Source: Demequina sediminis (GTDB lineage Bacteria; Actinomycetota; Actinomycetes; Actinomycetales; Demequinaceae). Taken from it: 64,000 nucleotides of DNA. A model generated the notes under the pieces. The model saw only the letters and a list, made by a program, of their open reading frames with translations, was not told the DNA's origin and did no database searches. This document shows, piece after piece, positions 12,656 to 48,752 of this stretch; position 1 is the stretch's first letter; the number at the start of each line of letters is the position of its first letter. The stretch is taken from positions 62,001 through 126,000 of the forward strand of contig NZ_AP027736.1 of NCBI RefSeq assembly GCF_030296675.1. The letters are read 5' to 3'. Both the position numbers and the translations under genes were made by a program.

Positions 12656-12789
12656 TTTCGCGGATCCGCGCCGTCACCTCCCGTCCCGCCTCACCCCGCC
12701 TCCCCGTTCCACCCCGCCCCCATTACGGCGCATCCTCCGCCTCACCGCCCCGTTCCGTCCCGCTTCACCTCCCCGCTCCACCTCCGCTT

Positions 12790-12853
12790 GGCGCATAGGA
12801 TCTTGTGAATCTTGGGGCGAAAAGGGCCCACGTGCATCGTCTAGTGCGATCGC
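12790..12853 (+). repeat. Left arm of 64-bp inverted repeat around nuclease-fold gene 1
   Basis: Aligned without gaps to the reverse complement of 13797-13860, 46 of 64 positions agree (72%). Identical blocks include GCGCATAG, ATCTTG, AAAAG, GCATC and TAGTGCGATC. The repeat contains the stop codon of the gene (TAG complement at 12841-12843). Outside it lies a C-rich low-complexity tract from about 12669 to 12789. Confidence 0.8.
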
Positions 12854-13737
12854 GTCCGCAGGACGGCCCTCACCGTGCGCCGGCACCATCCCGGCGTCTC
12901 CATCACGCGGCGGTACGACAGCCGCACCGTGAGGATCCCGATGGTCGCCAGGTCCGCATCGCGTTCGAGGTCCCGCTCACGATCCTCGCCAGCGGCGTGG
13001 AACTCGCCGCCGTCCAGCTCGACCGCGGTCTGGGTAGCGGGGTCGTACATGTCGAGGTGGTACGTGTGCTGGCGCGCCCGCACGCTGTGCTGGCGGATGA
13101 AGTGCGCGAACTCGCGACCCGAGAACGTTGACGTGAGCGCCTCGAACTCCAGGTAACTGTGGGCGCCCGCATCGAAGGCGTCGAGGACCCGGTGCAATCC
13201 CGAGCGATCCCGCACGCGGTACGTGTCCGTGAGCAGCAGCCTGATGGAGTCGGTGGAGACCACGCGGCGGCGCAACGCCTCGATGATGGTGCCCGTGGGG
13301 TGTCCGGGTCGGCCCCGCACCCATTCGTGAAGGGCGGCTCGTGCCGGATCCGTGACCGGAACATCTCCCCAGGTCCCCGCGATGGGCACCTCCGTGACAG
13401 GGGCGAAGGTCATGAGCCACTCGCGGGTGGCGAGGCGATGCCCGCGCGGAAGTGCGATGAGCGCGTGGTCGGGCGGGCGGCGAAGTCCGTTCCATGCGAA
13501 GAGTGCGGCGGCCCCGGTCAGCACGCCCGCGCCCGACGCGGTGGCGGCGTGCGCACGCGTCACCAACGACCACGCGTGCGGAGTCGACGCGAAGCGCCCC
13601 GGCAGGACCGCGACCACCTCCTGCGCGGCGATCGCGGCACGCACGTGGTGAGGGGTGGTCATCGCGACCATTTCCGCCCATGAATAGGTGCGCGGGCTGC
13701 GGTGGAGTTCGGCGGGGAGGTGCGTGCGAGGTGTCAT
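12841..13737 (-). CDS. AbiEi-like/DUF559-like nuclease-fold protein, copy 1
   Basis: A solitary protein of about 298 residues. The N-terminal part (SWAEMVAMTTPHHVRAAIA, then VVAVLPGRFAS) resembles the winged-helix domain of AbiEi-type proteins. The C-terminal part has the Vsr/DUF559 type PD-(D/E)xK signature: TAVELDGGEFHAAG, then ERDLERDADLATIGILTVRLS. No partner toxin or antitoxin gene is next to it. Starts at 13749 or the GTG at 13806 are possible; 13737 is preferred because TATGCA lies seven bases upstream. Both ends of the gene touch a 64-bp inverted repeat. A paralogue is encoded at 24768-25697. Function is unknown; nuclease activity is an inference from the fold. Confidence 0.7.
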   Translation of the reverse strand: MTPRTHLPAELHRSPRTYSWAEMVAMTTPHHVRAAIAAQEVVAVLPGRFASTPHAWSLVTRAHAATASGAGVLTGAAALFAWNGLRRPPDHALIALPRGHRLATREWLMTFAPVTEVPIAGTWGDVPVTDPARAALHEWVRGRPGHPTGTIIEALRRRVVSTDSIRLLLTDTYRVRDRSGLHRVLDAFDAGAHSYLEFEALTSTFSGREFAHFIRQHSVRARQHTYHLDMYDPATQTAVELDGGEFHAAGEDRERDLERDADLATIGILTVRLSYRRVMETPGWCRRTVRAVLRTRSH

Positions 13738-13796
13738 GAGAACTTGCATAGCGCCGAGGCGCTGCCGGTCGCGCCGCCCCGGGCGAATCTGTGGAT

Positions 13797-13860
13797 GAGA
13801 TCGCACTACGTGATGCGCGAGAGCTCTTTTGGGCCGTGAAATCGCAAGATTCTATGCGCG
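13797..13860 (-). repeat. Right arm of 64-bp inverted repeat around nuclease-fold gene 1
   Basis: Reverse-complement partner of 12790-12853 (46/64 identical, no gaps). It includes the GTG at 13804-13806 that is the farthest possible start of the enclosed gene. Immediately outside begins a G-rich tandem repeat, mirroring the C-rich tract outside the left arm. Confidence 0.8.
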
Positions 13861-13865
13861 AGGCG

Positions 13866-13947
13866 GTGGGGGTGGGGAGGGATGCGGTCGTGGGGGTGGG
13901 GAGGGATGCGGTCGTGGGGGTGGGGAGGGACGCGGTCGTGGGGGTGG
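13866..13947 (+). repeat. 24-bp G-rich tandem repeat, three copies plus a partial
   Basis: Three copies of a 24-base unit starting GTGGGGGTGGGGAGGGA, at 13866, 13890 and 13914, then ten bases of a fourth. The third copy differs by one base. Runs of five, four and three G per unit would allow G-quadruplex formation on this strand. It lies downstream of the TRIC channel gene. Confidence 0.85.
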
Positions 13948-22649: not shown

Positions 22650-22716
22650 TAACCCGCTTCCTCCGGATGGCACTCACGCCCCGGACGAACGCAATCCACG
22701 TTGCAGGCGTCTGCCG

Positions 22717-22803
22717 ATGATGTCTCCCGTCAGCCGTACCCACGTGGACGATCTCGCACTTCTGGAGCCACAGGGGCTCGTGCGAGGAAAGGAAAGTACG
22801 TGA
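22717..22803 (+). CDS. Possible leader peptide overlapping the rho start
   Basis: An open frame of 28 codons inside the rho leader (MMSPVSRTHVDDLALLEP, ending RGKEST). Its TGA stop overlaps the GTG start of rho in the form GTGA, the arrangement used for translational coupling. Evidence for translation is only positional: no strong ribosome binding site is seen before its ATG codons (22717 and 22720). It could be chance, or part of rho autoregulation. Confidence 0.3.
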   Translation: MMSPVSRTHVDDLALLEPQGLVRGKEST

Positions 22804-24656
22804 CAGACACGACCGTGGCAGTCGATCAGGGCGCCACCCTCTCCGCCATGAAGCTCGCCCAGTTGCAGGCGCTCGCCGCCGAGCTCGGGGTTTCGGGCAC
22901 CGCCCGCATGCGTAAGGCGGACCTCATCGAGGCCATCCGCAACGGCGGCGTGGTCAAGGCCAAGGAGCCTCGCGCCACCAAGAACACGAAGGCTGCAGCG
23001 ACCGAGGCCGAGGCGCCCGCGAAGGCCCCCGCCGAGCGCCCCGCGCGCCGTCAGGGCAGCCGTCGCGCCGAGGCTCCCCAGTCCGCGCCCCAGTCGACCG
23101 CCGAGCACGACTCCGACGAGCGTGCTCGCCGCGCCAAGGAGGCCGTCGCCCTCGCCGGTCAGCCCGTCGAGCCCGCGCGCGACCAGGCCGCCGAGGACCC
23201 CGAGTCCCGCGCCCGCCGCGCCAAGGAGGCGATCGAGCTCGACCTGCCTCGAGGCGACCGCCCGCAGCGCGGAGCGCAGCAGGGCGAGGACGGCGGCGAG
23301 CGCCGCCAGCAGCGCCAGCAGCGCACGCCTCAGCAGGGCGACGCGCAGCAGCAGCGCGCGCCCCAGCAGGGCGACGCGCAGCAGGACCTGGACGATGATG
23401 ACCGCAGCGGGCGCCGTCGCCGCGGCCGTGGGCGCGGTCGCAACCGTGGCCGCGAGCGCGACGTGCTCGACATCCCCCAGCAGTTCGATGAGGACGATGC
23501 CCGTGACGACGAGGAGCTGACCCCCGTCGGCGGCATCGTCGACATCCTCGACAACTACGCCTTCATCCGCACGACCGGCTACCTTCCCGGGAAGTCCGAC
23601 GTGTACGTGTCGATGAACCAGATCAAGAAGTACGGCCTGCGCAAGGGCGACGCGATCACCGGCACCGTGCGCCCGCCCCGACCGGGCGAGCGCGGACAGC
23701 GTCAGAAGTTCAACGCCCTCGCCGGCGTCGACAAGGTGAACGGCATCGCCCCCGAGGAGGCGCGCACCCGCCCGTCGTTCGGCGACCTCACGCCGCTGTA
23801 CCCGCAGCAGCGTCTCCACCTGGAGACCGAGCCGCGCAACATGACCAACCGCGTGATCGACCTGGTCGCACCCATCGGCAAGGGCCAGCGCGGCCTCATC
23901 GTGTCGCCTCCCAAGGCGGGCAAGACGCTCGTGTTGCAGTCGATCGCCAACGCGATCGTCACCAACAACCCCGAGGTTCACCTCATGGTCGTGCTCGTCG
24001 ACGAGCGCCCCGAGGAGGTCACGGACATGCAGCGCACGGTCAAGGGTGAGGTCATCGCCTCGACCTTCGATCGTCCGGCCGACGACCACACCACGGTCGC
24101 CGAGCTCGCGATCGAGCGTGCGAAGCGTCTGGTCGAGATGGGTCACGACGTGGTCGTGCTGCTCGACTCGATCACCCGCCTGGGCCGCGCGTACAACATC
24201 TCCGCGCCGGCCTCGGGCCGCATCCTCTCCGGCGGAGTCGACTCGTCGGCGCTGTACCCGCCCAAGCGCTTCTTCGGCGCCGCGCGCAACATCGAGAACG
24301 GCGGCTCGCTCACGATCCTCGCGACCGCGCTGGTCGAGACCGGCTCGAAGGCGGACGAGGTCATCTTCGAGGAGTTCAAGGGCACGGGCAACATGGAGCT
24401 CAAGCTCTCGCGCACGCTCGCGGACCGCCGCATCTTCCCGGCCGTCGACGTCAACGCGTCGGGCACGCGCCGCGAGGAGATCCTCATGAGCCCCGAGGAG
24501 CTCAAGGTCATGTGGAAGCTGCGTCGCGTGCTCACCGCGCTCGAGCAGCAGCAGGCCATCGAGCTGCTCCTGGGCAAGCTCAAGGAGAACAAGACCAACG
24601 CCGAGTTCCTCATGCAGGTCGCGAAGACCACGCCGGGGACCGACGAGGAGAAGTAG
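22800..24656 (+). CDS. rho: Transcription termination factor Rho with long disordered N-terminal insertion
   Basis: Hexameric RNA helicase that terminates transcription. The 618-residue product begins with the Rho N-terminal helical domain (MKLAQLQALAAELGV...MRKADLIEAIRNGG). A disordered, charged stretch follows (about 60-220), including Gln-rich repeats of QQGDAQQ and an Arg-rich [17 protein letters not shown]. Then come the RNA-binding domain (GGIVDILDNYAFIRTTGYLPG), Walker A (PPKAGKT, about 373-380), Walker B (VVVLLDSITRLGRAYN) and the Q/R-loop region. Such basic insertions are typical of actinobacterial Rho. GTG start with AGGAAAGG upstream. Confidence 0.97.
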   Translation: MTDTTVAVDQGATLSAMKLAQLQALAAELGVSGTARMRKADLIEAIRNGGVVKAKEPRATKNTKAAATEAEAPAKAPAERPARRQGSRRAEAPQSAPQSTAEHDSDERARRAKEAVALAGQPVEPARDQAAEDPESRARRAKEAIELDLPRGDRPQRGAQQGEDGGERRQQRQQRTPQQGDAQQQRAPQQGDAQQDLDDDDRSGRRRRGRGRGRNRGRERDVLDIPQQFDEDDARDDEELTPVGGIVDILDNYAFIRTTGYLPGKSDVYVSMNQIKKYGLRKGDAITGTVRPPRPGERGQRQKFNALAGVDKVNGIAPEEARTRPSFGDLTPLYPQQRLHLETEPRNMTNRVIDLVAPIGKGQRGLIVSPPKAGKTLVLQSIANAIVTNNPEVHLMVVLVDERPEEVTDMQRTVKGEVIASTFDRPADDHTTVAELAIERAKRLVEMGHDVVVLLDSITRLGRAYNISAPASGRILSGGVDSSALYPPKRFFGAARNIENGGSLTILATALVETGSKADEVIFEEFKGTGNMELKLSRTLADRRIFPAVDVNASGTRREEILMSPEELKVMWKLRRVLTALEQQQAIELLLGKLKENKTNAEFLMQVAKTTPGTDEEK

Positions 24657-24683: not shown

Positions 24684-24748
24684 GCGCCCCGTGAGGTGCT
24701 CAGTGCCCGATTCGTTCGATTTCGGGCACTGAGCACCTCACGGGGCGC
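24684..24748. repeat. Dispersed hairpin repeat, copy 1 (27-bp perfect arms)
   Basis: Two perfect 27-base arms (24684-24710 and 24722-24748) around an 11-base loop containing TTCGTTCGAT. The core of the arm is GAGGTGCTCAGTGCCCG. It lies 27 bases after the rho stop and 19 bases before the stop of nuclease-fold gene 2. It could terminate both transcripts, and it is one of a pair of hairpins bracketing that gene. Confidence 0.85.
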
Positions 24749-24767
24749 TCTGCTATCCGCGGGCGCC

Positions 24768-25697
24768 TCACGAGCTGCGGATGCCGAGCCGCCCCGCCAC
24801 CGTGGTGAGCACCCGCTCGCGGCACCACTCTGGTCTGAGGGCGATGTCGTTCCACCCGAAACCCAGCACGGCGTACCCGGCGGCCACGAGGTCCGTCCGG
24901 CGTTCCCGATCCGCATCGCGCGCGGCGCGGGTCGAGTGGTAGCGGTCGCCGTCGAGCTCGACCGCGACCTTGGTGCGCCGATGCAGCATGTCGGGTGTGG
25001 CGTTGCGCGTCGGCAGCGCCAGGGTCTGCTGCCACTCGAAGTCGCGGAAGCGCGCGTCGACGAAGGTCTCGTGCTTGGCCCGCACCTCGAGCGGGGTGGT
25101 CGCGCCCTCCGCGAACCAGCCGAGCACCCGCTCGAGATCTCGACGGCCCGCGACACGTGGAGTGCGCTCGAGTTCGCGGGCAAGCTCGCGCCACGTGCAC
25201 ACCCGTTCCCAGAGCGCCTCCCACAGAATTGTCCGACGCGCGGAGGGCGGCGAGTACCGCCACGCGTCGAGCAGCGCCCGAGCTATCGGGACGCTCCTCA
25301 GACCGCCCGCGCGGGTGGTCCACCGCGGGGGACCGGTCTGGTGCAGTCGAGCCCAGGGCGGCGCGTTGAGGCGCTGACCGTGCGGTACGACGAAGTCCAG
25401 GCGATCGGGTTTCGGCAGCGACCGCGCGTACAGATGCAGCGCGCATGCTCCGGTCACCGCGCCGCGCGGCTGCCACAGCGTGAGCGCCTCGGCGCGGACG
25501 GTCGGGTCGCCCGCGTGAGCCGTGCCGCAGTAGACGCCCGCCAAGAGCCGAGTGAGACCTCCCTCGCCGAGGCCCCTGTCGAGCTGGCGGCGCGACCAGT
25601 GACCCACGAGCTCGGCCCGCGTGTACGCGTGGGCGCTCGTGCCCAGGAAGTCGGAGATCGACATCCGGGACGATGCCGGGTCGGGCAAGGGTCGCAT
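24768..25697 (-). CDS. AbiEi-like/DUF559-like nuclease-fold protein, copy 2
   Basis: A solitary protein of about 309 residues (298 if it starts at the ATG at 25664). The N-terminus (YTRAELVGHWSRRQLDRGL, then LTRLLAGVYC) fits an AbiEi-type winged helix. The C-terminus has the Vsr/DUF559 PD-(D/E)xK pattern: KVAVELDGDRYHSTRAARD, then DRERRTDLVAAGYAVLGF. It is a distant paralogue of the protein at 12841-13737 with the same architecture. It splits the normally adjacent rho and rpmE genes and is bracketed by two copies of a large hairpin. No cognate toxin or antitoxin is visible. Function unknown; nuclease activity is an inference. Confidence 0.72.
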   Translation of the reverse strand: MRPLPDPASSRMSISDFLGTSAHAYTRAELVGHWSRRQLDRGLGEGGLTRLLAGVYCGTAHAGDPTVRAEALTLWQPRGAVTGACALHLYARSLPKPDRLDFVVPHGQRLNAPPWARLHQTGPPRWTTRAGGLRSVPIARALLDAWRYSPPSARRTILWEALWERVCTWRELARELERTPRVAGRRDLERVLGWFAEGATTPLEVRAKHETFVDARFRDFEWQQTLALPTRNATPDMLHRRTKVAVELDGDRYHSTRAARDADRERRTDLVAAGYAVLGFGWNDIALRPEWCRERVLTTVAGRLGIRSS

Positions 25698-25768
25698 GCG
25701 GCCAGGCAACCCCGATCTGGGTGAAGACGCAGCCGCCTGTCCGGATCTGTGGAGAACCGCCGCGCCCT

Positions 25769-25819
25769 GCGAGGTGCTGAGTGCCCGAATCGGGTCCGAA
25801 CGGTCACTCAGCACCTCGC
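25769..25819. repeat. Dispersed hairpin repeat, copy 2
   Basis: Arms at 25769-25787 and 25801-25819 with core GAGGTGCTGAGTGCCCG; one mismatch within 19 pairs. Compared with copies 1 and 3, one arm base differs (CTGAG instead of CTCAG), and the complementary arm carries the compensating change. That supports selection for, or copying of, the fold. It is about 70 bases upstream of the start of nuclease-fold gene 2. Confidence 0.82.
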
Positions 25820-26034
25820 GACGCGCGATGGGGGAGTGATGTCCCGGGCGGGTGCGGCGGGGTGGGCACAATGGGGGCGGGCGCGACGGAGCAGAGTCGC
25901 GGAGAGGGAACGATGCCCTGTCCAGGACGCGCGTCGCGTCGCCCTTGACAGCCGTGGCAGAATAGAACGCTGGCCAGCCGGTTCACCGAGCGCGAGGTAC
26001 GCGTGCGGACCCGGCGGCACCTCTAAGGGAGATC
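25820..26034 (+). other. Intergenic region upstream of rpmE
   Basis: No gene is seen. The stretch 25698-25768 before the hairpin also shows nothing. TTGACA at 25945-25950 is a perfect -35 match, but no TAnnnT hexamer is correctly spaced; AGAATAG at 25959-25965 is too near. The promoter for rpmE-prfA probably lies here without a clear -10. AAGGGAG at 26024-26030 is the rpmE ribosome binding site. Confidence 0.4.
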
Positions 26035-26241
26035 ATGAAGAAGGACATCCACCCCGAGTACGTGGCCACCACTGTCACGTGCACCTGCGGCAACACGTTT
26101 GAGACCAAGTCCACCGTGACGTCCGGCGCGATCAGCGTCGAGGTCTGCTCGGCCTGCCACCCGTTCTACACCGGCAAGCAGAAGATCATGGACACCGGTG
26201 GTCGCGTGGCGCGCTTCGAGCGCCGCTACGGCAACAAGTAG
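26035..26241 (+). CDS. rpmE: 50S ribosomal protein L31, zinc-binding type
   Basis: A 68-residue ribosomal protein bL31 of the large subunit. The zinc ligands are present: CTCGNTF contributes two cysteines and [12 protein letters not shown] two more, so this is the C+ paralogue rather than the zinc-independent YkgM type. The start [10 protein letters not shown] and the end [10 protein letters not shown] are canonical. A good ribosome binding site precedes the ATG. prfA follows after 16 bases, so the two are co-transcribed. In other actinobacteria rpmE directly follows rho; here a nuclease-fold gene and hairpins separate them. Confidence 0.97.
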
Positions 26242-38275: not shown

Positions 38276-38322
38276 GAGGTGCTCAGTGCCCGTTTCGGAC
38301 GATTCCGGGCACTGAGCACCTC
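38276..38322. repeat. Dispersed hairpin repeat, copy 3
   Basis: Perfect 17-base arms (38276-38292 and 38306-38322), GAGGTGCTCAGTGCCCG and its complement, with loop TTTCGGACGATTC. The arm core is identical to copy 1, and the loops share TTCG and CGATT. No nuclease-fold gene accompanies this copy. It lies 43 bases after nucS and may act as its terminator. Confidence 0.83.
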
Positions 38323-48340: not shown

Positions 48341-48470
48341 TGCGGCTCCGCCACACCGCGCTGTTCTGCGGCTCCGCCACACCGCGCTGTCCTGCGGCTC
48401 CGCCACACCGCGCTGTTCTGCGGCTCCGCCACACCGCGCTGTCCTGCGGCTCCGCCACACCGCGCTGTTC
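48341..48470 (+). repeat. 26-bp tandem repeat, five copies
   Basis: Five perfect-length units starting TGCGGCTCCGCCACAC, at 48341, 48367, 48393, 48419 and 48445, followed by a partial sixth. The units alternate at one position (ending GTTC, GTCC, GTTC, GTCC, GTTC), which points to duplication of a 52-base pair of units. It begins 20 bases after the thioredoxin-TPR gene. Confidence 0.92.
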
Positions 48471-48752
48471 TGCGGCTCCGCCACACAAGCCGCCCCGGCA
48501 TCGGCCCTCAGCAGGTTCCGCGGGCGCGACACGCCGGCGACACGCCGGGACCTGTGTGGCGGAGCCGCGAAAACGTGTGGCGCAGCCGATACGGGCGGTC
48601 AAGGGTTTGCAGTCTGGCCGCCGTGCACTCTTGCGGCTGCGCCACACAACCCACCCCGGCATCGTCCCTCTGCGGCCTTTGCGGGCGCGACTCGCCGGCG
48701 ACACGCCGGGACCTGTGTGGCGGAGCCGCGAAAACGTGTGGCGGAGCCGACA
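48471..48752. repeat. Two direct copies of a 161-bp-spaced element with inverted ends
   Basis: Bases 48471-48591 and 48632-48752 align without gaps at a spacing of 161 bases. Each copy opens with TGCGGCTCCGCCACAC (one mismatch in the second) and closes with the complement GTGTGGCGGAGCCGCG, then AAAAC and a further GTGTGGCGnAGCCGA. So each is an inverted-repeat element of about 120 bases. With the tandem array, this fills the 473 bases between two convergent genes; no gene is supported here. Open frames across it only translate the repeat. Confidence 0.85.

Follow-up and report, generated by a model that had tools for sequence, protein, structure and literature searches.

The known dedicated partner of palindromes resembling repetitive extragenic palindromes (REPs) is the REP-associated tyrosine transposase (RAYT). 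In the REPtrons and TIRtrons described in the accessible parts of PMC2817692, PMC3733652 and PMC8266576, a solitary gene lies between two palindromes, further copies are dispersed in extragenic DNA, gene and palindromes form cognate pairs, and there are relatives flanked by terminal inverted repeats (TIRs). Here, we relate this arrangement to a locus of the actinobacterium Demequina sediminis, whose genome is a single contig of 2.7 Mb. The locus lies in a stretch of 64,000 nucleotides (NZ_AP027736.1, positions 62,001 to 126,000; hereafter the window, whose coordinates are used below) and contains P0001, a gene whose product joins an AbiEi-like half to a Vsr/DUF559 nuclease and which is enclosed by two large hairpins (Table 1). 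We consider it reasonably probable that this is a REP/RAYT-like palindrome-spreading unit built with an unrelated enzyme, the AbiEi-like/Vsr-like nuclease.

The architecture of the locus is as the preliminary description of this DNA had proposed. Hairpin 1, announced there as 27 perfect pairs just past the stop codon, has arms (24684-24710 and 24722-24748) that are complementary at 27 of 27 positions and 11 nt apart; it heads the list of 60 inverted repeats in the window (best 25 of 60 shown) and is separated by 19 nt from the stop end of the gene. The second copy, claimed for the region before the gene start, is equally present: the arms of hairpin 2 (25761-25787 and 25801-25827) begin 63 nt from the ATG. 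The gene also splits rho from rpmE. The only Pfam families matched by P0001 are DUF559 and MTES_1575, with PF04480 exceeding the cut-off and PF18741 staying below it. A Foldseek search (E ≤0.001) had no match, and the fold assignment is based on re-alignment: the nuclease half of this protein type has invariant acidic and histidine residues, and P0001 displays the PD-(D/E)XK-type fold of Vsr/DUF559 enzymes together with their conserved acidic residues. Rfam returned only miRNA-type matches for the hairpins, all below the cut-offs.

Palindromes accompany this gene throughout the genus. We examined 50 homologues, mostly the best of about 100 matches listed; loci were oriented by tblastn, and from about 320 nt on either side of the gene we took the highest-scoring palindrome of 53-57 bp, the score being pairs minus mismatches over 20-bp arms. 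With a score of at least 12, a palindrome of about 55 bp adjoins 43 of the 50 genes on one side or the other (25 upstream, 36 downstream, 18 on both sides), and with a score of at least 10 both flanks carry one in 30/50. Control segments reached 2/187 in the window, where the solo hairpin at 38276 was still included, and 6/282 within the same loci. DUF559 genes mostly devoid of flanking hairpins, the outcome which the preliminary description had named as contrary to its proposal, are therefore not what the genus presents; as in REP/RAYT systems, palindromes of a single family lie on both sides of the gene.

Furthermore, the two flanks of one gene resemble each other. Over all 50 loci, with no side excluded, the mean arm mismatch is 0.231 between the flanks of one gene versus 0.462 between loci (0 of 10,000 permutations); with hand-picked sides at 29 loci the values are 0.067 and 0.415. 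For the model alignment and the Mantel test, 21 and 20 locus sides were dropped by eye as terminator-like or chance; one further row was left out of the flank alignment for the covariance model, giving 73/74 aligned. In this alignment the arms covary in 25/25 pairs, and most rows share a core close to CWTGAGTGCC, with adjacent bases varying by lineage. Palindromes differ between loci yet tend to match within a locus, and in our reading their sequence changes along with the protein lineage. The downstream palindrome contains the stop codon of the nuclease in 24/34 cases, 13 of these 24 having TGA at the same position.

Dispersed extragenic copies, the other REP/RAYT feature, are found as well. 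The covariance model, built from 73 flank palindromes and counted on both strands, has hits in 44/44 genus genomes. Where the P0001 clade is represented (32 genomes, best match below 1e-88), the median is 36.5 hits, versus 9 in the 12 genomes without it (Mann-Whitney p 9e-6), a comparison which is biased because the training set consisted of gene flanks. We inspected 65 dispersed places, 62 of which, including the poor palindromes L177 and L249, could be compared with gene flanks of their own genome. Their mean identity is 11.4/14 to a flank of the same genome versus 9.1 to flanks of other genomes; for 31/62, no flank from elsewhere fits better than the own one (G033 6/7, G027 4/5, G005 3/3).

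In the D. sediminis genome (G000), the palindrome family comprises about 15 copies, one of them truncated; an exact two-arm pattern with a constant total length of 47 bp fits 12. Among named public contigs, this pattern occurs in Demequina only (8 stretches). Single-arm matches with 3 mismatches were left uncounted as mostly due to chance (42 and 45 versus 21 and 14 for the reversed pattern). In the window, the 17-nt arm with at most 3 mismatches occurs 7 times versus 0.54 expected, a number reached in 0 of 100 shuffles. The third window copy (38276-38322) has no adjoining DUF559 gene; by an approximate frame analysis, 8 of 9 further loci in this genome have the palindrome in the space separating probable genes. 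The link between hairpin and gene suggested in the preliminary description is nevertheless supported: 13/15 copies in the D. sediminis genome are not beside a DUF559 gene, but half of the comparable dispersed copies in the genus are best or equally well matched by a gene flank of their own genome, and by the biased model copy numbers are higher where the gene clade is present.

Single sites differ between species. Sixteen further short nucS-bgl spacers from genus genomes were aligned with that of the solo hairpin (38276), and none showed it. Of the 30 loci considered for this alignment, 7 incomplete ones and 6 with long spacers were set aside; the 17 used were too diverged to define an insertion boundary. 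Between rho and rpmE, some species have gene and palindromes. In others a solo palindrome is found, belonging to the genome's own family in G027 and G028 and to the G000 family in G017, and there are other palindromes in G006, G007, G059 and, among the matches listed, G036. The preliminary description had proposed to look for sites free of both gene and hairpins: G065 and, among the matches listed, G016 carry no palindrome of this kind. Another gene occupies the site in G004, G025 and G026 (among the matches listed). A large gene which we read as secreted-metalloprotease-like lies within rho-rpmE of G004, G025, G026 and G060 (L204, L205, L206 and L215, among the matches listed).

The arrangement extends beyond the P0001 subfamily. 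As the preliminary description had recognized, the window contains two paralogues with the same two-domain layout; paralogue 1 falls into a sister subfamily, and its flanks form a 96-bp inverted repeat (71% identity, E 2e-15) instead of hairpins. At 25/30 sister-subfamily loci, an inverted repeat is common to the two flanks of the gene (E ≤1e-4; controls 0/90 for far-flank and 10/90 for cross-locus pairs); a comparison at low stringency was dropped as unspecific (8/30 controls) in favor of this stricter one. By our reading, these repeats often hold two copies of a site of about 16 bp per side, in direct order. The D. sediminis genome has four two-domain DUF559 genes, each with flank repeats of its own distinct sequence (two with hairpins, two with inverted terminal repeats), and a fifth DUF559 domain in another context without flanking repeats. 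DUF559 matches occur in 55/59 genomes. In the other families of this order, flank repeats are shared at 9/23 DUF559 loci (E ≤1e-4; controls 0/21 and 0/69). One such genome, G074, carries the same palindrome to the left and right of the gene, and we read 7 more paired copies, with arms spaced by 23 bases, at other places of this genome but none in G000 or G089. Tandem arrays of repeats of about 28-30 bp lie on both DUF559 flanks at L263, L264 and L275, also from other families of the order.

How could such a unit operate? The AbiEi promoter contains a palindrome to which AbiEi itself binds, with 11-bp arms separated by N27 and extendable to 23-bp arms (available parts of PMC3985639). By analogy, each AbiEi-like/Vsr-like gene and its two bracketing palindromes would form one unit. 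A dimer would bind both palindrome arms through the AbiEi-like half, as AbiEi does with a palindrome of similar size, and the upstream palindrome would double as an autoregulatory operator. The Vsr-like nuclease may then nick or cut at or near the bound palindromes, so that break repair or replication would copy them into new intergenic sites; this copying would homogenize the flanks and seed solo copies. Dimer, binding, cutting and copying are proposed steps, and we infer that the P0001 protein acts on the hairpin. In favor of the unit speak comparisons between genomes: genes are bracketed, flanks covary, and dispersed copies often carry the gene's own sequence. In addition, species differ at single sites, nuclease residues are invariant, and the arrangement recurs in other families. 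On a broader scale, the chances seem about even that REP-type DNA had an independent origin outside the HUH enzymes, in a large actinobacterial AbiEi/Vsr family in which each lineage maintains and spreads its own palindrome or paired direct/inverted sites. The two subfamilies would then represent a hairpin type (own palindrome) and a TIR type (paired direct/inverted sites).

Several observations weigh against a palindrome-spreading unit. At only 25/50 loci do the two flanks of the gene match each other best or tie for best, and the correlation between protein and palindrome distances is partly shared descent. Four genomes without the P0001 clade (G006, G017, G036, G004) still have 18-30 model hits. 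For the remaining 31/62 dispersed palindromes, a flank of another genome fits better (own flank best in G060 0/2, G029 0/3, G061 0/2, G020 0/3, G012 0/1), hence old palindrome families, or several of them, coexist. Rho-rpmE is the single locus of 20/30 homologues, so vertical inheritance fits better than frequent movement, and 14/23 DUF559 loci of other families have no shared flank repeat at E ≤1e-4. The support is comparative throughout, and both the dispersal mechanism and any active transposition are putative.

The palindromes could instead serve regulation only, with the AbiEi-like half as a repressor that binds them, the nuclease acting elsewhere and the dispersed sites being targets or decoys. 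This would agree with the promoter palindrome of AbiEi itself and with the spacing of upstream palindromes, 17/41 of which end 66-70 nt before the start-equivalent codon. Among the parts of the protein, the N-terminal one also shows the closest correlation with palindrome sequence (Mantel 0.52 versus 0.42 and 0.33, differences without significance test). However, the 3′ end of the gene has a matched palindrome too, which frequently encloses the stop codon. About 30 arm bases are common to dispersed copies and hard to reach by point mutation, the neighbors searched are unrelated housekeeping genes, and one site has a palindrome in one species which is absent from the 16 others aligned. We therefore regard a pure regulon as unlikely. 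Still less probable is a cut-and-paste element similar to an insertion sequence, in which the gene would move with its terminal repeats by means of a Vsr-fold transposase. The inverted flanks would suit such an element, but near-identical gene copies are missing from the D. sediminis genome (two-domain homologues are 31-36% identical to P0001), two thirds of the homologues keep one locus, and searches of 72,556 plasmid records at E ≤1e-8 and of 50,697 phage records at E ≤1e-5 yielded no match. Finally, the strong stems and the mostly intergenic position of the palindromes would be compatible with ordinary bidirectional transcription terminators that flank the gene by coincidence. This is very improbable: TTTT occurs within 20 nt outside the palindrome in 1/77, separate GC-rich terminator-like stem-loops coexist at several loci, the arm sequence is common to both flanks of a gene, and copies also lie upstream of it.

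Table 1. Features of the window (positions in nt; rho, rpmE, nucS-like and beta-glucosidase-like are names from our own reading)
Feature	Position	Strand	Description
P0001	24768..25697	minus	AbiEi-like N-terminal half fused to Vsr/DUF559 nuclease; 309 aa from ATG 25697
Hairpin 1, downstream palindrome	24684..24748		Core GAGGTGCTCAGTGCCC / GGGCACTGAGCACCTC; 27-bp perfect arms
Hairpin 2, upstream palindrome	25761..25827		Hairpin 1 family; arms 85% complementary
Solo palindrome, same family as hairpins 1/2	38276..38322		Dispersed copy between nucS-like and beta-glucosidase-like genes
Paralogue 1	12841..13806	minus	Two-domain layout as in P0001 (31% identity); sister subfamily
Paralogue 1 downstream-side inverted repeat	12766..12861	plus	Pairs with 13789-13884; 71% over 96 bp
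Paralogue 1 upstream-side inverted repeat	13789..13884	minus	Pairs with 12766-12861
rho, context	22701..24656	plus	Named from reading of translation
rpmE, context	26035..26241	plus	Named from reading of translation

Some palindromes and spacers deserve separate mention. In one case (G000 C1:680965-681011, L023), an EamA-type gene overlaps at its 3′ end with a dispersed palindrome, which recalls the gene-flanking palindromes that often overlap the nuclease stop codon. A 497-bp segment between two hairpins is present twice in the same genome, 99.6% identical and 22.9 kb apart (G000 C1:2288943-2289419 and 2311821-2312297; L012, L014). It encodes a small membrane-protein-like frame, PLDc_N-like by our reading; this hairpin-bracketed duplication is a single case, and its second copy has one edge inside a hairpin arm. 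Unrelated palindromes were recognized by eye in the nucS-bgl spacers of G006, G025, G030 and G061 (L279, L280, L281, L285), as if this spacer were a favored palindrome site across species. Inspection by eye also showed a recurrent short motif similar to GGGACGATGCGG / GCATCGTCCC between genes of several Demequina genomes (spacers of L146, L152, L154 and several nucS-bgl spacers). In the window, several imperfect inverted repeats of 31-37 nt (48347-48744) directly follow a frame which we read as thioredoxin-like.

If the proposed unit is real, a second, unrelated enzyme class has cognate palindromes and such systems arose more than once. The nucleases of DUF559, a common domain of unknown function, would acquire a function, and the specificity of each nuclease would be readable from the flanks of its gene. 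According to the accessible part of PMC3733652, one large REP class (CGTC) is apparently without a dedicated transposase; AbiEi/Vsr enzymes could be the missing partners of RAYT-less REP families such as the CGTC repeats.

Among proteins of related type, the AbiEi antitoxin of type IV AbiE systems differs from P0001, whose AbiEi-like half is fused to a nuclease. The neighbors of P0001 in the window are rho and rpmE; by reading, with no family search, no AbiEii nucleotidyltransferase gene was seen beside it. Vsr, DUF559 endonucleases and the homing endonuclease I-Bth0305I lack the extra AbiEi-like half, and P0001 has cognate palindromes on both sides and lies between genes rather than inside one; neither a methyltransferase nor an intron was seen next to it in the window, again by reading with no family search. 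The titles, abstract openings and passages of the open-access papers searched, with preprints and most subscription journals outside their scope, yielded no link between DUF559 or AbiEi/Vsr proteins and palindromic repeats, also among papers that mention DUF559, such as PMC12907096.

With REPtrons (TnpA-REP), the Demequina system shares the bracketed solitary gene, the dispersed copies, the cognate pairs and TIR-flanked relatives comparable to TIRtrons. In contrast, its protein is an AbiEi/Vsr enzyme of PD-(D/E)XK type whereas RAYT is a Y1 HUH enzyme, and its palindromes measure about 55-65 bp, compared with 20-40 bp for REPs. The RAYT family PF01797 (E ≤0.001) was found in 0/37 genus genomes; its matches in 2/59 relatives overall are both outside the genus. 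The foot of REPs is not above chance at the 77 palindromes examined (GTAG 5 versus 4.0 expected, CGTC 19 versus 16.4). Hence this is not a RAYT system, and because no known system of its protein type was found either, we regard it as categorically new, a view that rests on layout and covariation as read from the sequences. The parallel to REP/RAYT with an unrelated protein, drawn in the preliminary description, nonetheless holds for layout, cognate covariation and dispersal, with a protein other than a Y1 transposase, and the Demequina system may work like the RAYT system.
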